DNA of 46,006 nt, taken from Gemmatimonadaceae bacterium (GTDB lineage Bacteria; Gemmatimonadota; Gemmatimonadetes; Gemmatimonadales; Gemmatimonadaceae). The stretch covers positions 1 to 46,006 of the forward strand of contig JALHNZ010000026.1 of assembly GCA_022843265.1 (NCBI GenBank), written 5' to 3'. The translations under genes were made by a program, and so were the position numbers. The notes beneath the pieces were generated by a model. It ran no database searches, was not told where the DNA came from, and saw only the letters and a program-made list of their open reading frames with translations. This document shows, piece by piece, positions 31,779-43,115 of the stretch. Every line of letters begins with the position of its first letter. The first letter of the stretch is position 1.

Positions 31779-33068
31779 TTACGGCGTGTGGTGCAACGCG
31801 TCGGGTAGCGCCATGCGCACCACAACGGGTGGTGCGTCGTCGCGATCCGTTTGCACGGCAATCAGATCACGTTCACGCACCGCCGCAATCCGCCATTGTC
31901 GACCGAGTGAAAGGCGCGTGATCGGGATCCCCTCCGCGTCGAACACCCACCACACCCAATCGTCGGACGGGTTGCCAACGGGCAGTCGAAGCCAGATCCG
32001 ATCCCAGGGATCGGTGAGCAATCCACTGGCCGTTGCTTTCGTTGGCGGGAACGATGCCTCATCGACAAAACGACGACGTACAGCGGAATCCGAACGCGAG
32101 CGCGCCGTCGACAATACTTCCGACAGAAAGCGTTCACGGTCTTCAGGCGTGACGGCTTCGATGGCGCAATCGAAATCGAGTCGCATGCGCAGCGCACCCG
32201 TTGAATCATGCCGCGCGATTTCGCAGCCCTCGGTATCGGCGACCAGCACACTGTGGGCGCCGAGTGTCCAGAGGGTGGTGCGGCCGTAGGGAATGCTGCC
32301 TGAGCGAATGGGGATATTGTCGCCGCGGGCGCCGGGTCGACCAAGCTGCACCGTGCGTTCCGGGCCACGGAGCTGCAGCAGTGTGTCACGAAACGCACCG
32401 TCAGTGCCGAACCGCAGCAGCGCCATCGCAGCACGCGACACACCAGCACCCTGCTCTTGCGGAAACGCGATGGTGACGGCGATGGGTACGCCACTGTGAA
32501 ACGCGCCGGACACGGTGGCAACGCGCGGCAGCGGGTACGCAATACTGATCGCGTCCCCCAACCCTGATGACGTCACGCGTGTGAGGCGACCAACTTCCCA
32601 GTCCCACAACAGCAGCGTATCCGCGCGATACGGCATGATCGTGGTGCGCGCACTGAACTCGCCTGGCGCGGTGCCGACTTTCCCGATCGGTTCGCCGCGC
32701 CCGCGTCCTGAATTGGGGAAGCGGATCAGCGCGGGTCCACTCTGGCTGTATATCACGATGGACGAATCCGCGAGTGGCTGCAACGCCACCAATCCCACAA
32801 CGCCTTCTGCCTCGGCATTCGCGCCGTTGAGCAACGTATCCAATACACGGAGTGCTTCGTTCGCACGAAGCGAGTCACGCGAAAATCCCGCTGACACAAT
32901 GCGTACGCCCGCACTGTCACGCACCGATGTTCGCGGCGTGTTGTCGGCATCGTTCGACGCCGCGCGCTCGCACGACGCCAGCAGCGATATCGCCATCAGC
33001 AACGCGCACAGCCGACCATACTGTTGACCGCAACGATGGAGATGCCGCCGCACACGCGTGTTCCTCAT
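31779..33068 (-). CDS. beta-propeller lipoprotein of unknown function
   Basis: A 429-aa predicted lipoprotein (LCALLMAISLLASCERA, lipobox LASC). The mature protein resembles six-bladed propellers: RDSAGVRIVSAGFSRDS, ADSSIVIYSQSGPALIRFPN, GRGRGEPIGKVGTAPGEFSA, DTLLLWDWEVGRLTRVTSSG and DPWDRIWLRLPVGN, with the recurring pattern of NHL-type blades. Such proteins are abundant in Gemmatimonadota-like genomes; ligands are unknown. The ATG overlaps the stop of the deacetylase-family gene (ATGA), so its translation is coupled to that gene. Confidence 0.75.
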   Translation of the reverse strand: MRNTRVRRHLHRCGQQYGRLCALLMAISLLASCERAASNDADNTPRTSVRDSAGVRIVSAGFSRDSLRANEALRVLDTLLNGANAEAEGVVGLVALQPLADSSIVIYSQSGPALIRFPNSGRGRGEPIGKVGTAPGEFSARTTIMPYRADTLLLWDWEVGRLTRVTSSGLGDAISIAYPLPRVATVSGAFHSGVPIAVTIAFPQEQGAGVSRAAMALLRFGTDGAFRDTLLQLRGPERTVQLGRPGARGDNIPIRSGSIPYGRTTLWTLGAHSVLVADTEGCEIARHDSTGALRMRLDFDCAIEAVTPEDRERFLSEVLSTARSRSDSAVRRRFVDEASFPPTKATASGLLTDPWDRIWLRLPVGNPSDDWVWWVFDAEGIPITRLSLGRQWRIAAVRERDLIAVQTDRDDAPPVVVRMALPDALHHTP

Positions 33069-34069
33069 GCGTGCACCAGCGCATTGAGATGCGCCATGAC
33101 GGCCTCGGCCGTTTGCACGGGTTCGTATCCACCCTCAAGCGCGCTCACGATACGACCGCCGCACCAGCGATCAGCGCGCCGAGCGAGTTCGCGCGTCATC
33201 TCGGCCATGTGCTCGCTCGTCCACGTGAAGCCGCCAAGCGGATCGCCCGCGAGACTGTCAAATCCGGCACTGAGCAGTACCAGATCGGGCGTCCAGTCGC
33301 GTGTTGCGCTATCCACCGCGTCCCAGAGCGCTTGCGTGTACGCTTCCGGAGCGAGCGCCTCGGACATTGGCACATTCCAGATGGTGTTGAGTGGACCGCG
33401 ATCGGTGTGCGCGCCCGTTCCTGGATACCACGGCCATTGATGCACCGACACAAAATGAATCGCTGCGTTGGACTCGACCAGCGCCTGGGTGCCGTTGCCG
33501 TGGTGCACGTCCCAATCAATAATGAGGACGCGTTCGGCATACTGCTTGTGCAGCGCGTACAAGGCGCCCAGCGCCACGTTGCCAAAGAGACAAAAACCCA
33601 TGGCGCGATCACGCACCGCATGATGGCCCGGTGGACGAACGGCACAGAACGCACGCGTGGCGCGGCCGTCGAAGAGCATATCAACGGCGTCGAGCACACA
33701 ACCCGCGGCTGCCGTTGCGGCGAGATACGAGCCGCTGCTTACCACCGTGTCGGGATCAAGGTGACCACCACCGGACGCGGCGAAATCTTCAATGCGCCGG
33801 ATGTACGCGGCGTCGTGCGCCAGTTCAAGTTCGGCGGGCGTCGCGTGCCGTCCCTCGTGGTGTACCAGCGCGTGAAACAGCTCGGGGTGATACTTGAGCG
33901 CGCTGGGAATGGCCCGGAGCCGACCGACATGCTCCACGTGTTTCCAACCGGTGTCGTGCAGGCCACAATCGGAGTGCGAAATGAAGGCAACGGACATGCT
34001 TGATGTTACGTCACGCGGCGGTGCTGCCGCTACCGGTGCGGCGCGTGTGTTTCCGTTGGCTACGTTCAT
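33065..34069 (-). CDS. histone deacetylase-superfamily hydrolase
   Basis: A 334-aa zinc-dependent deacetylase/amidohydrolase. It contains CAVRPPGHHAVRDRAMGFCL (catalytic His pair), VLIIDWDVHHGNGTQAL (zinc Asp/His), HFVSVHQWPWYPGTG, LSAGFDSLAGDPLGG (second zinc Asp) and SALEGGYEP with the Gly-Gly-Tyr. Bacterial members deacetylate polyamines, acetyl-lysine or small molecules; the substrate here cannot be told. The ATG at 34069 overlaps the upstream stop (ATGA) and is chosen for that coupling. A later ATG at 33997 (MSVAFISHSD) begins the conserved domain and is possible. Confidence 0.92.
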   Translation of the reverse strand: MNVANGNTRAAPVAAAPPRDVTSSMSVAFISHSDCGLHDTGWKHVEHVGRLRAIPSALKYHPELFHALVHHEGRHATPAELELAHDAAYIRRIEDFAASGGGHLDPDTVVSSGSYLAATAAAGCVLDAVDMLFDGRATRAFCAVRPPGHHAVRDRAMGFCLFGNVALGALYALHKQYAERVLIIDWDVHHGNGTQALVESNAAIHFVSVHQWPWYPGTGAHTDRGPLNTIWNVPMSEALAPEAYTQALWDAVDSATRDWTPDLVLLSAGFDSLAGDPLGGFTWTSEHMAEMTRELARRADRWCGGRIVSALEGGYEPVQTAEAVMAHLNALVHA

Positions 34070-35385
34070 CGTGCGTCTCTGAGGCGGCGCGACCACCACG
34101 CCGCGAGCAACGCGGTACCGGCCAGCGCGAATAACCACACAGGCGGCGCCACCGGAGCGAGGTTCTCTGTGACGGTTGACGCATTCTGAAGGCCCGGCGG
34201 TCCAACGCGTGCCACAAGATCAGCCAACGGTGCGGCCTCCCCCGGGAAAGTGGACCATTGATCCGTGCCCCTGTGGGAAACGAAGGCCGTTCGATGCACC
34301 AACGATTGCCACCAGGCGCGGTGATCCGTTGGCGCGCTCTCATTTCCAAGCATGCGCCATTCCCACGTGTCGCGGTATCCCACGTGCAGTACGCGGCCAA
34401 CGCCCACGGTGCGCGCGGCGATGGCGAGTGGAGCACCCGCGCGTGCGCTGCGCTCAATCGGGACAGCGCCAGCGGCAAGTGAAATGATTGGTACGAGGGG
34501 AAGGCCTTCTCTCGGCGCCGTGGTTTGCAGCGCACCGGGCACACCTGACACCGTGGTTGCTGACTCGCCCGCGCGCAGCGCACGCATGGCACTGCCCCGT
34601 GCCGCGTCGGCGAAGAGCACCAGCCCCCCACCACTTCTCACAAACCGCTCAATCGCCGACGCCTGAAGCCACGCCGTGCTGTCGAGCGCAATAACGGCCG
34701 CGTAACGAGCGGTATCGAGTGGTGCGAGCAGACCCGCCGTGACAGTCGCGCGCGGAGCCACCGCAAACGCTGCATCAACATTCCAGCCAGATTCTTCGAG
34801 CGCGCGCATGACGAATCGCGCTTCCCATCCGGGCGCGGCGAAGAGTCGAAGGCGACCGATTGCCGCAGAATCCGCCGAGTTCACCCGCGCAATGGTGCCC
34901 TGATGCGAAACGGAGTATTGCCGTCGTGTACTGGGCAGTGTCCACGAAACTCCACCACTTTCAGTTTGTGCGCTGTCGATCCAACCAACGGAATCGGCGA
35001 GCGCGATCATCGCCGAGTCCCGAACGGCTACGCGGAGCACGGTGCCTCCGGCTGGATCGGCAAGCGGCAATGCGGACAACGCAATCGAAGTGAGTTGGGC
35101 GGCCGAGTCGCGAGACTGCCATGACACATCGACGCCGGCGTGGTCGGCAGCGTGCAGGACCGCGCGCGACGCGGCGTCGGGCACGGCGGTGAGCGAGAGA
35201 TGCAGTTGCTGCCGCATCGGATCAGCGAGTCGCTGCGCGAGCTGCGGTGCGGTGAGCGCGCTGTCGGCATCTGCCACAAGCGGCGCTTCCGAACCAGATG
35301 CTGGTGTACGGCCCGTGAGCCACCACGCATACAGCAGCGCGGCCACCGCCGAGGTTCGCAGCGTACGCTCCAGAATCACACGCAT
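34066..35385 (-). CDS. membrane protein of the MoxR operon, function unknown
   Basis: A 439-aa protein with one N-terminal hydrophobic segment (TSAVAALLYAWWLTG) and one C-terminal helix (VWLFALAGTALLAAWW) followed by basic residues, so the bulk is periplasmic. The central domain ADTAR..VIALDSTAW, FVRSGGGLVLFADAARGSAM and VGVGRVLHVGYRDTWEWRML resembles the class I glutamine-amidotransferase-like/ThuA-like fold seen in BatA-associated proteins, without an obvious catalytic Cys. The ATG at 35385 is 7 bp after the DUF4159 stop; an upstream in-frame start at 35418 would overlap that gene. Confidence 0.7.
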   Translation of the reverse strand: MRVILERTLRTSAVAALLYAWWLTGRTPASGSEAPLVADADSALTAPQLAQRLADPMRQQLHLSLTAVPDAASRAVLHAADHAGVDVSWQSRDSAAQLTSIALSALPLADPAGGTVLRVAVRDSAMIALADSVGWIDSAQTESGGVSWTLPSTRRQYSVSHQGTIARVNSADSAAIGRLRLFAAPGWEARFVMRALEESGWNVDAAFAVAPRATVTAGLLAPLDTARYAAVIALDSTAWLQASAIERFVRSGGGLVLFADAARGSAMRALRAGESATTVSGVPGALQTTAPREGLPLVPIISLAAGAVPIERSARAGAPLAIAARTVGVGRVLHVGYRDTWEWRMLGNESAPTDHRAWWQSLVHRTAFVSHRGTDQWSTFPGEAAPLADLVARVGPPGLQNASTVTENLAPVAPPVWLFALAGTALLAAWWSRRLRDAR

Positions 35386-35392
35386 CAGACGC

Positions 35393-36022
35393 TCAATGGG
35401 TGAGCGCGTAGACCACAAGATTCACACCGAATCGTGTGGGATCAACGCCCATGAAACGTTTGTTGTCCGGATGAAAATTCCATTCCGAACTGTAGTCCTT
35501 GTTGCTGTACAGCACGCTGATGCGATCGTTGCGCAACACGGCCAGCAGGTGTTCGTGCACCAGATTGTCGCCCCATCCATTCAGCTCGTGACTGGTGGTT
35601 GGCGGGCCGTCTTCAAAGCGAAAGAACGACGTGTACAGCGGATGATTGTTGCGCAGTGGCGTGAGCGGTGCCACCAGACGTCTGATCTCTTCGAGCGCCG
35701 TTTTGTGAAACGCGCCATCGATATCGTGGTTGTGATCATCAATGAACAGAAGACCACCGCGCTCCACGTAGCGTTGCAGCACCCGTCCTTCCTGTGGCGT
35801 GAAGCGCACCGGCAGGTGCCCGGTGAGAAAGAGCAGCGGATAGCGCAACGCGTCTTCAGAGGCGAGCGCCACCGAAACACCTTGCGGGGCCACGGGCAGC
35901 GAGGTGTATCGCGCCACGGAATCAATGAGGTTTCCCGGCAGCGACGGAGCACTATCCCAGTCGCCGGATTCATACTGCGCCGTGGCGAACACAAACGGTG
36001 AAACATTGGGGAGAACGGTCAC
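35393..36022 (-). CDS. DUF4159-domain protein
   Basis: A 209-aa protein with the DUF4159 pattern: FVFATAQYESGDWDSAPSLP, YPLLFLTGHLPVRFTPQEGR, YVERGGLLFIDDHNHDIDGA and FGVNLVVYALTH at the end. The domain has a glutamine-amidotransferase-like fold and usually occurs in MoxR/DUF58/BatA operons. No signal peptide is visible in this start. It overlaps the DUF4175-like gene by 4 bp (ATGA). Confidence 0.85.
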   Translation of the reverse strand: MTVLPNVSPFVFATAQYESGDWDSAPSLPGNLIDSVARYTSLPVAPQGVSVALASEDALRYPLLFLTGHLPVRFTPQEGRVLQRYVERGGLLFIDDHNHDIDGAFHKTALEEIRRLVAPLTPLRNNHPLYTSFFRFEDGPPTTSHELNGWGDNLVHEHLLAVLRNDRISVLYSNKDYSSEWNFHPDNKRFMGVDPTRFGVNLVVYALTH

Positions 36023-38217
36023 GGCACACTCCAGCTGGAGGCGCCGCGCGTGACGGCAGGCCTGGAGAGTGTGCGTCGGGCAAACACGAGCGCGTCGGTG
36101 GCATCACGACCATCGCGCAACGCATTCAGCACACCATCCAGCGCCTGCGAAAACGCCGGCGCATCGACAAGTGCATCTAGGCGAAGTACCGCGAGCGAAT
36201 CGCGCGCCGACGTGGCATTGGCAGTGAGTTGGTCTGCGGCACGCGCGAAACGCCTATCGAGCTGCCGTACACGATCCGGTTCCGCGACACCGGGAAGTCT
36301 TCGTGCATTCTGTCCCGTGTCTTTGCCCGCCAGGCGCACGCGCGCGAGATCCACCACGATGGGACGCACGCGACCACGCAAGTAGACACGTTCTGCTGCT
36401 CGCGCTCGTTGAATGGCGGCCAGCGCGAGTCGCATGGGCGGAATCGCAGCGCGTGGGTCGGCCTGTTCAAGCGCGCGTCCGGCGTCCCACATGGCATTGT
36501 AGGCTTCGAGCAACGGCAGATTTACCGCAATGATTGGCGATTCTTCCGACACATTGTTGTTCACGCGCGTCGGTGTACCACTGGCCGCACTCGCCGCACC
36601 ACCAAATGACGGGACAAGCTTTCCCTCTTGCACGGTGAGCCCATGATCGTGCCCGTCACCTTCATAGTGCACGTGCTCCGACTCGCCCTCACCAGACAAC
36701 CGCGCGTACACGATGGCGCTGACGGCGCGGCGAATACGCGCCTGTTCCGTGGCCAGCTGGCGAGACTCGGCCACCAGCACGTCGCGAGCGATTGTGGTAC
36801 GACGTGCTTCGAGCTTGATCGTGAGCTCCAGCAACATGCGCTGCGACAGGAGCGACGAGTCTACCGCTGGTGGCGGCGCCGCTTCGACGGCGACGGAATC
36901 GTATTCCTCCGCCCGTGCAAAACGCAGTGAGCGCGTTTCGCTCACGCCGAACTCGCGTGATGCAGCCGGATGCTGATCGCGGGCCACGGCCCGCACATGC
37001 AACACGTCGCCGGATTTCACGCCGAGTTGCGCAAATGACAGTTCGTGCACAATGCGCCCCGTGCGCGCCCCAGCGAACGAGCGTTCGGCAAGCCGCAACG
37101 TGCGGGCCGTGAACTGTTCGCCGGCTCCGCTGGTCAGAATCACTTCGAACGCCGCCGAAGCGAGGCCGTAGTCATCGCTGACCTCAGCGGAGAGGCTGAG
37201 CACACCCGTGCTATCGCGATACACGGAGTCGCGCAGCGGTGCGGCTAAGCGTACGCGCGGCAGCGAATCCGCTTTCGGGATAATCACGAGCAGGCGCGAA
37301 TCGTTGCCATCGCGCACCTTGATCACGCCAGGCTCTGGGGTCACAACCGTTGTGGTCGACCAGCCGGGCGACGCCTCGCTTGATGAGCTGACCGGCAACG
37401 AGGTCTCGCGACCCGCGCGTGGTGACACGCTGGCGAGCAGACCGCTCGTATCACCGAGACCAATGAGTTGGACGCGGCTACCAACCAGCGCTTCGACCGT
37501 GCCGGAGTCGGTGAGCGTACGCGTTGGCAGCCGGCTGTACGCAGGCGGCGTGACCTCAATGCGCCAAGGCGCGAGGCGCGAAGCGCGGGGATTCACCGCA
37601 TTCACGTCCGCAGCAAATGAAATACCGCGTGCTGACGTGATTGACGCAGGGGTGGTCGCGGCAAGTGACACGATCACGAGCAGCGCAATCGCCGTGATGC
37701 TCAGTCCCAGTGGAGTTTTCAGCGCCCGCCAACGCGCGCTGCGAACCGCCGCGTTGGCGGGCACGGTTTCCTGCACCACCATTCTCGATTGCGAAGCCAG
37801 ACGTTCAGCCACGCGGCCCGAGAGCTGCGTGTCCTCTACCAGCGTCACGACTGCGTGAGAGGCCGGATGATGTTCCTCATACCAAAGCGCCGCGCGAACC
37901 GGCGTGATGGGTTGCCACCGCATCATCTGACGCAGCATTACGAGCAGGTACACCACGAACGCCAAGGCAAATCGTGCGGCTGGCTCGTTCAGGAGTTGCC
38001 ACACAGACGACAATACGGCCGCCGGTGAGATCCATGCCACAAGCAACAGCAACGCGCGCATCGCGAGCAACACCAGCAGCGCTGCCGCGGCGCCCGTCAC
38101 GATGATGCGCAGCATACGTGTGCGCTCAAGCGCCTTGGCCAACGCCGCCACACGATGGCGCACGTCGTTCGCGGTAAGCGGGAGCGGACGCGCCGCATCG
38201 ATCTGTGCCTGATTCAT
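36019..38217 (-). CDS. DUF4175-like large membrane protein
   Basis: A 732-aa protein. Two hydrophobic segments near residues 35-110 (LRIIVTGAAAALLVLLAMRA, FALAFVVYLLVMLRQMM) and a third near 170 (LGLSITAIALLVIVSLAA) anchor it. A large periplasmic part follows with Ig-like regions (WRIEVTPPAYSRLPTRTLTD, LSLSAEVSDDYGLASAAFEV), then an alpha-helical C-terminal half. This plan matches DUF4175-type proteins found beside MoxR/BatA genes. Function is not established. Overlaps of 4 bp with both neighbours. Confidence 0.75.
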   Translation of the reverse strand: MNQAQIDAARPLPLTANDVRHRVAALAKALERTRMLRIIVTGAAAALLVLLAMRALLLLVAWISPAAVLSSVWQLLNEPAARFALAFVVYLLVMLRQMMRWQPITPVRAALWYEEHHPASHAVVTLVEDTQLSGRVAERLASQSRMVVQETVPANAAVRSARWRALKTPLGLSITAIALLVIVSLAATTPASITSARGISFAADVNAVNPRASRLAPWRIEVTPPAYSRLPTRTLTDSGTVEALVGSRVQLIGLGDTSGLLASVSPRAGRETSLPVSSSSEASPGWSTTTVVTPEPGVIKVRDGNDSRLLVIIPKADSLPRVRLAAPLRDSVYRDSTGVLSLSAEVSDDYGLASAAFEVILTSGAGEQFTARTLRLAERSFAGARTGRIVHELSFAQLGVKSGDVLHVRAVARDQHPAASREFGVSETRSLRFARAEEYDSVAVEAAPPPAVDSSLLSQRMLLELTIKLEARRTTIARDVLVAESRQLATEQARIRRAVSAIVYARLSGEGESEHVHYEGDGHDHGLTVQEGKLVPSFGGAASAASGTPTRVNNNVSEESPIIAVNLPLLEAYNAMWDAGRALEQADPRAAIPPMRLALAAIQRARAAERVYLRGRVRPIVVDLARVRLAGKDTGQNARRLPGVAEPDRVRQLDRRFARAADQLTANATSARDSLAVLRLDALVDAPAFSQALDGVLNALRDGRDATDALVFARRTLSRPAVTRGASSWSVP

Positions 38218-39626
38218 GACGGAGATCCACCACGCGTGCGTGACAGCGCCGTCTCAATCCCGATGAGCGCAACGGCTGCCACCAGTAACCAGCGCGTGAG
38301 CGGTGACAACACTCCGGGAAGTGATGCGCGCAGCTCACGTGATGCAGCCAATCCACCGTTGCCAGTCAGTATCGAATCCTGTTGGCTTCGCGCCAGTGAA
38401 TCTTGCAATGTGAGGGCGCCCGTTGCGAACGATGATGCTACGCCCGCGCCGCATTTGGCGACCAGCGCCGCGAGCGCCCCCCGCGCTGATACACTGAGCA
38501 GCGCGTCGCCCGCCGGCGGCGCGAATCCCACCACGCGAATGCAGCCTGCACCAACATGCCGCTCCACCGCTGCGGGCGCGCCGTCAATCCACCACACGAT
38601 TGCGTGGTGCGCACTGTCTACCAACAGCGGCTTTTCGCGCCGTAGTGGTGCCACGAGCGCGACGCCGTTCGCAACAACCGCAGTCACTGCGCGTGTCGGC
38701 GTCTTTGAAATCGGCGCAGCAGCATTGGACGCGCCGCGAGCAACCCAGTCCACCACGGCCTCACCATTTACCGCTGCCAGTGAATCAGCCGCACCGAGCG
38801 AATCGCGCACGACTCGTGTTCGCACCGCGGGCAGGTCGCCCCATCGCGCGTACGCGGCGCGCACGATATCATCGTTTGCGCCGCGCACATTCACCACGTC
38901 TCGCGCACGATTCACGTATGCAGATGGAGAGGCCAGCGCGACGTCGCGCCGCGTGATTCGTCCGGGCCAGACCTGGCGCACCGCGCGCAACGCCTCGTCA
39001 GACACCTCTCGCAGCGCACCGCGGGCGGGCGTGAGCACGACCAGACGCACCGAATCGGCGCGGCTCGCGAACTGCGGGGCAGCCCGACGTGCACGCAACA
39101 ACAGGGCGCTCAGTGCAACCGGGTCGCGTGTGTTCACCCGCTGCGGATTGTTGTCTGTCAGCGCACTTCCCGTGATCGCGTTGATTGGTGCGGTGGCAAT
39201 TGTTTCGGCATCCCACAAGCCATCCATCGGCGTTGCGCCGGAGGTCGATACGATGCCAACCACAGGCGTGTTGTCGCGCTGCGCGTCACGCACAACCTCA
39301 CCGATGCTACGCCGCAGCACGGCGGTGTCGGCGGCGACCATATCGTCAACGGCAATCAGCGTCACCACCGACTCTCGCGACTGGTCGAATGTTACGCCCG
39401 CAAAGGCTACACCGGCGCAGATCACTGCGAACATGCGCAACACCATGAGCAGCACATCGGTGGGTCTGCTGGCACGCGACACGGACGGCACCGTGCGCTC
39501 GGGCGCAAAGCGAGCCGTGGGAAACGAAAGCACTGGCGGTCGTGAAATAGAAAGCAGGTGTGCGGCGACCACCGCGAGCGCAGCGAACAGTGTGCCCCAC
39601 AGCACCCATGGATACGCGGCAGTCAT
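38214..39626 (-). CDS. BatA-domain membrane protein with degenerate VWA motif
   Basis: A 470-aa protein beginning with the BatA two-helix region (YPWVLWGTLFAALAVVAAHL, LSFPTARFAPERTV, DVLLMVLRMFAVICAGVAFA). A von Willebrand A-like domain follows, but where the MIDAS Asp-x-Ser-x-Ser is expected it reads VVTLIAVDDMVAADTAVL, so metal binding is probably lost. A C-terminal helix (WLLVAAVALIGIETAL) precedes basic residues, as in BatA/BatB. Overlaps both neighbours by 4 bp. Confidence 0.82.
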   Translation of the reverse strand: MTAAYPWVLWGTLFAALAVVAAHLLSISRPPVLSFPTARFAPERTVPSVSRASRPTDVLLMVLRMFAVICAGVAFAGVTFDQSRESVVTLIAVDDMVAADTAVLRRSIGEVVRDAQRDNTPVVGIVSTSGATPMDGLWDAETIATAPINAITGSALTDNNPQRVNTRDPVALSALLLRARRAAPQFASRADSVRLVVLTPARGALREVSDEALRAVRQVWPGRITRRDVALASPSAYVNRARDVVNVRGANDDIVRAAYARWGDLPAVRTRVVRDSLGAADSLAAVNGEAVVDWVARGASNAAAPISKTPTRAVTAVVANGVALVAPLRREKPLLVDSAHHAIVWWIDGAPAAVERHVGAGCIRVVGFAPPAGDALLSVSARGALAALVAKCGAGVASSFATGALTLQDSLARSQQDSILTGNGGLAASRELRASLPGVLSPLTRWLLVAAVALIGIETALSRTRGGSPS

Positions 39627-40540
39627 GCGCTGCTCCGTACCGCGCTGCTCGCAATGCGGCGAACCGCTCGTGCCGGCTCTTCAGTGCACACTACCTCAAG
39701 GTGTCGTGCACCTGCGGCAAGGCAGCGCCTCGCGAACTCGGCGCGCCACGCACCAAATGTGGCCGTGTACTCCGCGCGCGATGTCGTACCAAACGCGCGT
39801 TGTACCTGTGAGAGCTCTGGATCGACCATGCGCCACACACCGGCCGGCGGCTCGATCTCGAACGGATGCACCACGTGCACAAGCGTGACGTCACTGCCCG
39901 CCGCTCCTGCACGAGCCACGGCTGAGAGCGTTGCGTCGTCGTCACCCAAGCCATCGGTAATCAGCACAACGCGCACGCCAACTGGTACACGCGACAACAG
40001 TGGTGCGAGCGGTGCATCGTGTGACGGCGTCACGGCATTCAGTGCGCTGGCAATGGCGTGCACCGTACCGCGACGCGTTCTGGGGGGCAGTCGTCTTCCA
40101 TCAGGGCGGGAGGCAACCCACAGGCCCACCGGATCGCCGGTTGCGTGCGCCACGGCGGCCAACCCGGTCGCCACGGCTCGCGTCATCTCCCACTTGTCGC
40201 GCGCGTCTGCAACGCCCGACCCGCGACGCGTCACGCTCTCTGCGGGAAACGCCATGGATGCCGAGGCGTCGACCAGAATCCACGTGGGCCACCACGCGCG
40301 CTCATCGGTGATGCGCACGTAGGCACGATCACTGCGCGCCAGCAGTCGCCAGTCAATTCGACGTGGGTCGTCGCCTTGTCGATAGGCGCGAAACTCGGTG
40401 AACTCACCGGTCGTGCCACGTTGTGCGGCGCGATGTGTGCCGGGCAGGCCTGCACGCACCCGTTCGCGAGCGGGCCACTTTACGCCGCGCAGTGCGTCGA
40501 GCAGCGGGCCCAGGTCGAGTGGCTCAGCCAGCGCGGACAT
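39623..40540 (-). CDS. DUF58-domain protein with VWA-like fold
   Basis: A 305-aa cytoplasmic protein with the DUF58 signature GEFTEFRAYRQGDDPRRIDW, YVRITDERAWWPTWILVDAS and DASASMAF, the last being an intact DxSxS MIDAS-like motif. Such proteins are the standard partners of MoxR ATPases. The ATG at 40540 is used; a GTG one codon earlier is also in frame. It begins 15 bp after the MoxR stop and overlaps the BatA-domain gene by 4 bp. Confidence 0.9.
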   Translation of the reverse strand: MSALAEPLDLGPLLDALRGVKWPARERVRAGLPGTHRAAQRGTTGEFTEFRAYRQGDDPRRIDWRLLARSDRAYVRITDERAWWPTWILVDASASMAFPAESVTRRGSGVADARDKWEMTRAVATGLAAVAHATGDPVGLWVASRPDGRRLPPRTRRGTVHAIASALNAVTPSHDAPLAPLLSRVPVGVRVVLITDGLGDDDATLSAVARAGAAGSDVTLVHVVHPFEIEPPAGVWRMVDPELSQVQRAFGTTSRAEYTATFGAWRAEFARRCLAAGARHLEVVCTEEPARAVRRIASSAVRSSA

Positions 40541-40555
40541 CACGCGCGACGCGAG

Positions 40556-41563
40556 TCAGCCCGGCAGTTTGCTCGACGGCGGCGATACATGTTTGAGCAA
40601 CGCGTCGACCACTGGTTCAGACGTCATGCCATCAGCCTCCGCCGCAAAGTTTGGTAGTACGCGATGCCGCAGCACAGGATGCGCCACGCGTTGCACATCA
40701 CTCGGCGCAACGGCCACGCGTCCATCGAGATACGCGGCCGCCTTTGCGCCCAGAATGAGTGCTTGTCCAGCGCGCGGGCCGGCGCCCCATCGCACATACT
40801 GTTTAACGAGCGACGGTGCCTCAGCGCTGTCAGGGCGCGTGGCGCGCACGAGCGAGGCTGCGTAGTGCAGCACCGTATCGGCCACGACCACATCACGCAC
40901 GCCGCGCTGCAGCGCGATCACTGCCTGCGCATCCATCACGGGCTCGGGTGGCGCAGACGCACGCCCCGTTGTGGCGCGAAGAATCTCTACTTCTTCAGCG
41001 GCCGACGGGTAACCAACCCGAATGTCAAACAAGAACCGGTCGAGCTGCGCTTCCGGTAGCGGGTACGTGCCTTCCTGCTCAATCGGATTTTGCGTGGCCA
41101 GCACAAAAAACGGCTCAGGGAGACGCATCGTATCACCCGCCGCGGTCACACTGTGCTCCTGCATGGCTTCGAGCAATGCCGCCTGCGTGCGCGGTGGCGC
41201 GCGATTGATTTCGTCGGCGAGCACGATGTTCGCAAAGATCGGCCCCTGCACAAAACGGAATGCACGATGTCCGTGCGCGTCTTCTTCGAGCAGTTCCGTG
41301 CCTGTGATGTCACTGGGCACCAGATCGGGCGTGAACTGAATGCGCCGAAACGCCAGATGCATGGACTCAGACAGGGTGCGGATCATGAGCGTTTTCGCGA
41401 GCCCCGGCACACCAACGAGCAGCGCGTGTCCACCCGCCGCGATCGCCATCAGGATCTGATCCACCACGACCGACTGCCCGACCACGCGTCTGGCGATCTC
41501 ACGTCGCACCGCATCAACCACCGCTACGAGTTCCTGCTGATCCTTCTCGCCTGAGTTGGACAT
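40556..41563 (-). CDS. MoxR-family AAA+ ATPase
   Basis: A 335-aa AAA+ chaperone-like ATPase. Walker A is HALLVGVPGLAKTLMIRTLS, Walker B NIVLADEINRAPPRTQAALL, sensor 1 FFVLATQNPIEQEGTYPLPE, followed by AQLDRFLFDIRVGYPSAAEE and the C-terminal lid domain. MoxR proteins work with VWA-domain partners to mature or remodel proteins and complexes, here presumably the DUF58 and BatA-domain products. It sits 16 bp after the ubiquitin-like gene. Confidence 0.95.
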   Translation of the reverse strand: MSNSGEKDQQELVAVVDAVRREIARRVVGQSVVVDQILMAIAAGGHALLVGVPGLAKTLMIRTLSESMHLAFRRIQFTPDLVPSDITGTELLEEDAHGHRAFRFVQGPIFANIVLADEINRAPPRTQAALLEAMQEHSVTAAGDTMRLPEPFFVLATQNPIEQEGTYPLPEAQLDRFLFDIRVGYPSAAEEVEILRATTGRASAPPEPVMDAQAVIALQRGVRDVVVADTVLHYAASLVRATRPDSAEAPSLVKQYVRWGAGPRAGQALILGAKAAAYLDGRVAVAPSDVQRVAHPVLRHRVLPNFAAEADGMTSEPVVDALLKHVSPPSSKLPG

Positions 41564-41579: not shown

Positions 41580-41906
41580 TTAGCGAATCACGCGACGACG
41601 ACGCGCGTGCACAAAAACCGTTGTGCCTGCACGAATCGTGGCGGCCGCCAACGACTGTGATTCGTCATGCACTTCGGAGCCGCGCACCTTCACGACATAC
41701 GCCTCGGAGTTGTCGCCGTCCTTGATCAGCGATTCGAGTGCAGCGCGCTTCACGGCGAGCACCGTCGTGTCGGCGGACACGAGCACGCGCACTGCGTCCC
41801 ACGCCTCATGTACCTGCGCCCGGATAAGGAACGTATCGGGCGCGCCTGCGCTCAGATCGATTGCGTCGCCCCGCGTGCGCAACTGCGTGACAAATGGTGC
41901 ACTCAT
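41580..41906 (-). CDS. small ubiquitin-like (beta-grasp) protein
   Basis: A 108-aa protein. After a polar N-terminus, AVRVLVSADTTVLAVKRAAL looks like beta1-beta2-alpha1 of a ubiquitin fold. YVVKVRGSEVHDESQSLAAA then TIRAGTTVFVHARRRRVIR matches the end of ubiquitin in pattern (strand, G-x-x-L/V, D-x-x-S-L, I-x-x-G/S-T, strand, RRR). There is no C-terminal Gly-Gly, so conjugation is unlikely. It is more like the YukD/EsaB-type ubiquitin-like accessory proteins. The fold call is from pattern reading only. The ATG at 41906 overlaps the upstream stop (ATGA); MoxR follows 16 bp later. Confidence 0.7.
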   Translation of the reverse strand: MSAPFVTQLRTRGDAIDLSAGAPDTFLIRAQVHEAWDAVRVLVSADTTVLAVKRAALESLIKDGDNSEAYVVKVRGSEVHDESQSLAAATIRAGTTVFVHARRRRVIR

Positions 41907-42241
41907 GCGGGGACCTCGCTGCCGTCGCCGGCGGGAAGCGCTTGCAACACGGGCAGCGGCGGTGCGGGCGGCAAAGTTGACAAGAACCGCGCCACCTGCT
42001 GATCGAACATGTAGCTGGATCCAGTCACGCGCGTATGCCCGTCGACCGCCACCTGCGCGCCGATGGCGATTTCTTCCCCGCCCTGACCACGATAGGTAGC
42101 CCAACCGGGTCCTTCCTTCTCAAGGAACGCCGTATAAATAGCGTTCCGGCGCGAAAAGAAGTCGGTGGCAGCCGCAATGACCGCCTCAGGCGCGATTGTG
42201 GTGCGAACGTCCTGCAGGGTGCGAGCGCTTTGCTGGTGCAT
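41903..42241 (-). CDS. small protein of unknown function upstream of the ubiquitin-like gene
   Basis: A 112-aa protein with a helix-rich N-terminus (TIAPEAVIAAATDFFSRRNA), then a strand-rich part (WATYRGQGGEEIAIGAQVAV, GHTRVTGSSYMFDQQVARFL) and a proline-rich tail (STLPPAPPLPVLQALPAG). No signal or membrane segment. No family recognised. Translation is coupled to the ubiquitin-like gene by a 4-bp overlap, so the two products may act together. It begins 9 bp after the SDR gene. Confidence 0.75.
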   Translation of the reverse strand: MHQQSARTLQDVRTTIAPEAVIAAATDFFSRRNAIYTAFLEKEGPGWATYRGQGGEEIAIGAQVAVDGHTRVTGSSYMFDQQVARFLSTLPPAPPLPVLQALPAGDGSEVPA

Positions 42242-42250
42242 CCCTGCAAT

Positions 42251-42943
42251 TTACCGGCGTGGCCGTTTGGGTGACAGGGGACGCACCTCAACTCGGGCCT
42301 GCAGGGCGTGCGGCGGCGTGGCGACCATGTGCGCGACCACTTCCGCGACATCTGACGGCTCGAGCATCCATGAACGATCGGTGCCCTCAGGGAAGAGTTC
42401 CGTGTCAACGGAGCCCGGCATCACCACCGAGACTTTCACGCCCGCGTCGCGCACTTCGAGCATGAGCGAATCGGTGAAGCCCATCACGAAGTGTTTGGTG
42501 CCGCTGTAGCAGCTACCACCTACGAACGTGTTGCGGCCGGCCAGCGATCCGATGGTGATCACATGACCGCTGCCACGCGCAACCATTGCGGGCAGGACTG
42601 CGCGCGTGACGTGATAGAGCGCGTTGATGTTCACGTCGACCTGTGACTGCCATTCATCGGGCGTGAGCTCAAGAAACGGCTTCATCACGGCGAGCCCCGC
42701 GTTGTTGATCAGCACATCGGGCGCGTGGCCCTCGAGCGCGCTTGCAATAGCGGATGCGTCGCGCAGGTCGAGGGGCACGGTGGTGCACGTGGCGTTGAGT
42801 GCCGTGCAGGCTACTGCGACGTCGTTCAGCGAGTTGACGTCGCGTGCCGTGAGGGTGAGGTCATGCGTAGGCGCGAGCGCGAGGGCGATGGCGCGGCCAA
42901 TGCCGCGTGAGGCGCCGGTAATGAGTGCAGTAGGACGGGACAT
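42251..42943 (-). CDS. short-chain dehydrogenase/reductase
   Basis: A 230-aa NAD(P)-dependent Rossmann-fold oxidoreductase. It has TALITGASRGIGRAIALALA (TGxxxGxG cofactor motif), VLINNAGLAVMKPF (NNAG), VITIGSLAGR (catalytic Ser) and SCYSGTKHFVMGF (YxxxK). The substrate is unknown. The ATG at 42943 has GGAAAGAG just upstream. It is first in the long minus-strand gene run, divergent from the TonB receptor across about 170 bp. Confidence 0.93.
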   Translation of the reverse strand: MSRPTALITGASRGIGRAIALALAPTHDLTLTARDVNSLNDVAVACTALNATCTTVPLDLRDASAIASALEGHAPDVLINNAGLAVMKPFLELTPDEWQSQVDVNINALYHVTRAVLPAMVARGSGHVITIGSLAGRNTFVGGSCYSGTKHFVMGFTDSLMLEVRDAGVKVSVVMPGSVDTELFPEGTDRSWMLEPSDVAEVVAHMVATPPHALQARVEVRPLSPKRPRR

Positions 42944-43115
42944 GGCTCTTTCCGAAATAAGGGAAACCGCAGCGAGGCGGAACAACGCGTGTGCTCAAAG
43001 TCACCGATACAGAGCCGTGACACGGCAAAGACGAGTCAGTGACGTAGTAACGGCACCTTTTGCGCTTCAGGTTCCGCACGCAGTCCGAAGTACCCCAACT
43101 CACCCCGTGCTTTCC

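Follow-up and report, generated by a model that had tools for sequence, protein, structure and literature searches.

The window analysed here, a 46,006-nucleotide stretch of contig from a member of the Gemmatimonadaceae, carries a run of minus-strand genes built around two small open reading frames (Table 1). Transcription proceeds from a short-chain dehydrogenase through a 112-amino-acid protein (hereafter the partner), a putative ubiquitin-like protein of 108 amino acids (Ubl), MoxR, DUF58, a BatA-type protein and proteins of 732, 209 and 450 amino acids (the cassette that begins with MoxR) to a histone-deacetylase-family enzyme. An earlier note, made from these letters alone, had given the positions of the small genes, their 4-bp overlap and a gap of 16 bp between Ubl and moxR; all of these were correct, and a check of the sequence added the strand and recovered the quoted ubiquitin-type motifs in the 108-aa protein. 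Its MoxR and DUF58 assignments were borne out by Pfam, which also recognised the BatA domain, and its view of the 112-aa protein as belonging to no known family agrees with the lack of any Pfam or NCBIfam match. The closest MoxR loci are those of Gemmatimonas sp. (86-87% identical). The short-chain dehydrogenase, directly upstream of the partner in the window's genus, is more distant or missing in other genera, and is not part of the core.

Table 1. Features of the locus, in order of transcription, with the basis of each assignment.
Feature	Coordinates	Strand	Basis and remarks
Short-chain dehydrogenase	42251..42985	-	PF00106, 1.3e-45
Partner, 112 aa, ATG start	41903..42241	-	ORF call; 42241->41903
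Partner stop overlapping the Ubl start, 4 bp	41903..41906	-	Sequence
Ubl, 108 aa, ATG start	41580..41906	-	ORF call; 41906->41580
MoxR AAA+ ATPase, first gene of the cassette, between Ubl and deacetylase	40556..41563	-	PF07726, 1.7e-62
DUF58 (vWA-like), cassette	39623..40543	-	PF01882, 8.5e-28; D-A-S-A-S MIDAS-type motif from sequence
BatA-type membrane protein, cassette	38214..39626	-	PF07584, 8.2e-7
732-aa membrane protein, cassette	36019..38217	-	ORF; order kept in relatives
209-aa protein, cassette; marker for cassette orthologs	35393..36022	-	
450-aa protein, final gene of the cassette	34066..35418	-	Order kept in relatives
Histone-deacetylase-family enzyme	33065..34138	-	PF00850, 5.2e-82; adjoins the pair downstream wherever the cassette does not intervene

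The structures of the two small proteins were predicted singly, and the 108-aa protein is predicted to be a ubiquitin-like beta-grasp, a reading already offered in the earlier note and now upheld by AlphaFold2, Foldseek and VIA. Its AlphaFold2 model (18 sequences; pLDDT 83.2) has strands and helix in the ubiquitin order. At E <= 0.001 Foldseek matched this model to 403 PDB chains, the 50 best of which are ubiquitin, SUMO, NEDD8, ISG15, other ubiquitin-like proteins or their complexes; ubiquitin variants were matched at E 4.9e-6 with a target TM of about 0.8, and in VIA the best PDB match was ISG15 (6xa9_B), aligned over 79 residues with Z 11.5 and an rmsd of 2.0. In a profile search of the PDB with the Ubl family, the ubiquitin-like protein 5zmb came first (9.8e-6) and ubiquitins followed, BilA standing near 0.06; the BilA structure 8tyx is among both the structure and the profile matches.

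Ubiquitin is conjugated through a tail that reads LRLRGG. At this place the Ubl carries a conserved basic tail, ending in ...ARRRRVIR in the window and mostly in RRRRPVR in other Gemmatimonadales, and a Gly-Gly end occurs in none of the 102 Gemmatimonadales tails inspected, which favours a non-covalent role over conjugation, as the earlier note had supposed. Such a tail would more likely serve in binding than in conjugation. The genes that were recognised in the operon and at related loci of 8-19 kb include no E1, E2 or DUB gene.

The partner has no Pfam match in any of 18 family members, the RatA family Polyketide_cyc (SRPBCC-START) included, and a PDB sequence search with its profile found nothing. 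Conserved R-G-x-G-x-E-E and F-D-x-Q positions run through these 18 sequences, and the AlphaFold2 model (pLDDT 83.9) has the order b-a-b-b-b-b-a. Structure comparison gave weak matches of two kinds, KA1 domains (VIA Z up to 9.8, the best being KA1-type 2zfd_B) and SRPBCC/START/PR-10 structures (Z about 7-9; 1vjh_A at Z 8.2, rmsd 2.8), the latter also numerous in Foldseek at E 0.003-0.05 and a TM mostly of 0.35-0.5; the fold matches include CoxG (2ns9), a helix-grip protein. The predicted fold is thus small and either helix-grip/START-like or KA1-like, and we call it helix-grip-like as a description of shape, not of membership. The N-terminal domain of spermine synthase is also among the fold matches, and we took this for a weak coincidence of fold. 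A phage or defence origin was rejected: PADLOC had no match for the pair, MoxR, DUF58 or the deacetylase, PHROG gave weak matches alone, in 2 of 49 partners, and the partner had no match on plasmids.

Both genes are widespread in the group. Of 60 related genomes, 55 have the Ubl and 56 the partner, in single copy save for one weak extra partner match, so the pair consists of real genes and not of chance reading frames; across 298 genomes of the phylum the figures are 166 and 200. All 111 genomes carrying both have them on the same strand, and 86 of the 111 (with a start codon assignable in 102) share the exact 4-bp overlap, which suggests translational coupling. The pairing is kept in three families of one order and recurs in two families outside it (f7 and f9), where ten Ubl homologs were found, each with a partner-like gene directly upstream, these partners being weak single-sequence matches (E between 8e-8 and 4e-3). 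Neither deacetylase nor moxR was found at the two f7/f9 pair loci read. The f7/f9 Ubl homologs (L227:9545-9865, L237-L246) all end in a single C-terminal Gly, instead of the RRRRPVR of Gemmatimonadales. In genus g13 the Ubl was undetectable in all eight genomes searched while the partner was retained (L166, L201), and at L166 the partner and deacetylase matches abut, with no space for a Ubl; the partner can therefore persist without it. Outside the phylum, a search of 31 genomes reached through the MoxR loci of other phyla, run without a positive control, gave no Ubl match. The durable unit at this locus is the partner-Ubl pair and not its link to MoxR.

Gene order was compared in 115 Gemmatimonadales genomes, 112 of which could be scored and 3 of which could not. 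The earlier note had asked whether the pair recurs next to moxR in relatives, and it does: partner, Ubl and moxR follow one another in 50 of the 112 genomes (arrangement A). Neither of the two outcomes that the note named as refuting it, a confident fold other than beta-grasp or absence of the pair beside moxR in all relatives, was thus observed. In 58, one of which (G016) has no Ubl, the partner and Ubl lead directly into the deacetylase gene (arrangement C), and in four, all of one genus, the order is moxR...p450-partner-Ubl-deacetylase (arrangement B). At L337 and in genus g7 the MoxR cassette lies upstream of the pair and not between Ubl and deacetylase. The 22 genomes scored from sister families f2 and f3 all show arrangement C and have no moxR there. 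A tree of partner and Ubl needs 13 changes of arrangement, at least 6 of them forced by well-supported branches, counts that are blind to gain versus loss and do not give the ancestral state within the family. Because every f2 and f3 genome is in state C, the simpler, though unproven, view is that the cassette arrived later. The 209-aa marker of the cassette sits elsewhere in some genomes of arrangement C, 2.7 Mb away in G020 for example, and at our threshold for orthology (E < 1e-50) it has no ortholog in the complete genomes G005, G008, G013, G021, G022, G024 and G025, although these have kept the pair. The picture of a Ubl-MoxR system drawn in the earlier note is not supported by this survey, given 58 of 112 genomes without adjacent moxR, at least 6 changes of position and several complete genomes lacking the marker ortholog. 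The MoxR-DUF58-BatA cassette, beside the pair in some genomes and not in others, is an optional neighbour that the pair can do without. Where the cassette does follow the Ubl, the gap to moxR has a median of 5 bp, with many 4-bp overlaps, and co-expression is therefore likely there; a cassette inserted at such tight spacing could make use of the pair.

The other recurrent neighbour is the deacetylase; by sequence, the solved structures closest to it are those of HDAC6 (2.9e-80 for the two-domain chain). The genes form a block in the sister families, with the order GlyRS - (peptidase) - partner - Ubl - deacetylase - PriA and more genes beyond, in which gene names other than those confirmed by Pfam are our reading of the sequences. 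Since this block from GlyRS to PriA is conserved across the taxonomic order, long-range synteny alone proves little, and the adjacency of the deacetylase may reflect inherited position and not function. Arginine-decarboxylase-like and LOR/SDH-like genes follow PriA, near the deacetylase, in these families (L141-L162), the former perhaps hinting at a connection with polyamines.

A further setting for the partner was found in families f6, f7 and f9 (L207-L224), where moaD-moaE, usually with moaA next, is immediately preceded by another partner homolog at 17 of 18 loci; MoaD (PF02597) and MoaE (PF02391) are Pfam-confirmed at L230. In some of these loci partner and moaD do not overlap and lie up to about 120 bp apart. 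HHalign values among the three partner groups (P1-P3 99.6%, P1-P2 97.2%, the higher one being that for the moaD-linked partners) indicate that the groups are homologous, and the window-type Ubl is weakly similar to the MoaD profile (HHalign 30%); one family of small proteins therefore precedes two kinds of beta-grasp protein. We know of no description of such a family, and a search of the open-access literature found no paper on the pair.

Among known systems, the closest in layout is RatA-RnfH (RatB) of proteobacteria, where a beta-grasp gene likewise follows straight after a START/helix-grip gene of the same strand. Conjugation enzymes are lacking there, as none was recognised among the genes identified here, and the pairing of the genes was pointed out by Iyer et al. 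2006 (PMC1779556). RatA precedes RnfH in 20 of 20 fetched loci, and the two E. coli reading frames overlap by 11 bp. Profile comparison with 21 RnfH and 21 RatA sequences, however, gave no detectable similarity between partner and RatA (HHalign 0.1-0.2%) and a weak one between Ubl and RnfH (5-19%); PF03658 (RnfH) had no match in 61 Gemmatimonadota genomes, the window's included, comparison with the single E. coli sequences found nothing, and no SmpB neighbour was seen. Membership of the RnfH/RatA families was rejected on the PF03658 search and the profiles, and the resemblance is one of arrangement only.

YukD/EsaB is comparable as a stand-alone, non-conjugated ubiquitin-like protein without Gly-Gly, and PF08817 (YukD) matches 6 of 18 Ubl family members (best E 3.7e-6), with the window Ubl below the cut-off (14.4 bits against 27, E 0.065). 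Its gene partners differ from those of the window Ubl, and a link to type VII secretion was rejected, since WXG100 genes (PF06013) were found in none of 21 genomes, the window's included, while the Bacillus subtilis control was positive. Bil/Bub systems share the ubiquitin-like fold, and BilA is among the structure matches, but the Ubl has no Gly-Gly, PADLOC had no match, and no E1, E2 or deubiquitinase gene was recognised among the genes identified. MoaD, too, has the beta-grasp fold, and in f6, f7 and f9 its gene comes after a homologous partner gene; unlike the window Ubl, it ends in Gly-Gly and matches ThiS (PF02597). E1, E2, E3 and JAB genes accompany the Ubl in the FtsH ternary MoxR-vWA systems reported by Kaur et al. 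2020 (PMC7159879), a complete conjugation set that was not recognised at this locus.

The reading that we prefer, at a probability of roughly 0.58, is that the pair forms a non-covalent two-protein module. The two proteins would be made together by co-translation, and the upstream product, a small helix-grip-like domain, would bind the downstream beta-grasp protein as its dedicated partner, presumably in a one-to-one complex that may work as an adaptor or regulator and not as a conjugated tag. The partner is probably a dedicated companion of beta-grasp proteins, in the style of RatA with RnfH, because it is a near-constant associate of the Ubl and has relatives beside MoaD; adjacency of this kind can also reflect shared expression alone.

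Other readings place the pair in the service of a neighbour. One is a midasin-style arrangement in which Ubl and partner form a substrate adaptor that marks or presents a substrate complex, the Ubl is held by the MIDAS of DUF58 and MoxR does the pulling. Mdn1 (AAA and MIDAS), whose MIDAS domain takes hold of a Ubl, is the precedent and extracts the UBL proteins Rsa4 and Ytm1 (PMC8837202). The likeness is that of an AAA and a MIDAS protein standing beside a Ubl, as roughly half the genomes show, and the D-A-S-A-S motif, the short Ubl-moxR gap, the contact of cassette and pair in two different positions (arrangements A and B) and a nearly invariant acidic residue of the Ubl, E82, are all in its favour. 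We nonetheless hold it unlikely, as the MoxR-Ubl association is lineage-specific and repeatedly changing, E82 is just as conserved where MoxR is not adjacent, more than half of the scored genomes, with every one of the sister families, have no cassette beside the pair, and the seven complete genomes listed above lack the marker ortholog. That the pair binds or targets the deacetylase or its acetylated substrate draws on the 58 genomes in which this gene is next downstream, on a spacing of <= 30 bp in 27 of 42 C-type genomes and on its presence in the same gene run even with the cassette between; yet the f7/f9 pair stands without it, genus g13 has partner and deacetylase without Ubl, and the adjacency may be a legacy of the syntenic GlyRS-to-PriA block, so that this role seems decidedly unlikely.

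The partner homologs before moaD-moaE invite a different view, namely a module for sulfur transfer or related to the molybdenum cofactor, with the partner as a helper of MoaD-type carriers and the Ubl as a carrier derived from them. The CoxG fold match would fit, as CoxG is counted, like coxD and coxE, among the genes for cox maturation, and Kaur et al. derive MoxR-vWA pairs from CoxD-CoxE (PMC7159879). With a window Ubl that has neither Gly-Gly nor a ThiS/MoaD Pfam match, so weak a similarity between the Ubl and MoaD profiles, and molybdenum-cofactor genes not seen at the Gemmatimonadales locus, we regard it as improbable. Covalent protein modification by enzymes encoded elsewhere in the genome would suit the clear ubiquitin-like fold and the single terminal Gly of all f7/f9 homologs, but the Gemmatimonadales tails, mainly ...PVR and never Gly-Gly, and neighbourhoods in which no conjugation genes were recognised make it highly improbable.

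Beyond the non-covalent module itself, we would suggest, as a doubtful extension, that the 112-aa family is an undescribed class of beta-grasp-binding proteins controlling Ubl and MoaD non-covalently, and that the pair is coupled to MoxR-vWA, in the manner of midasin and its Ubl substrates, in some Gemmatimonadaceae.

Bacterial ubiquitin-like proteins that lack conjugation enzymes, such as RnfH and YukD, have gene partners, and their roles are poorly understood. MoxR, the obvious neighbour at this locus, was misleading, being an optional cassette in this lineage, and the earlier picture is corrected in this respect. A small partner family that stands beside two different beta-grasp proteins offers a direct handle on whether the partner binds that fold.
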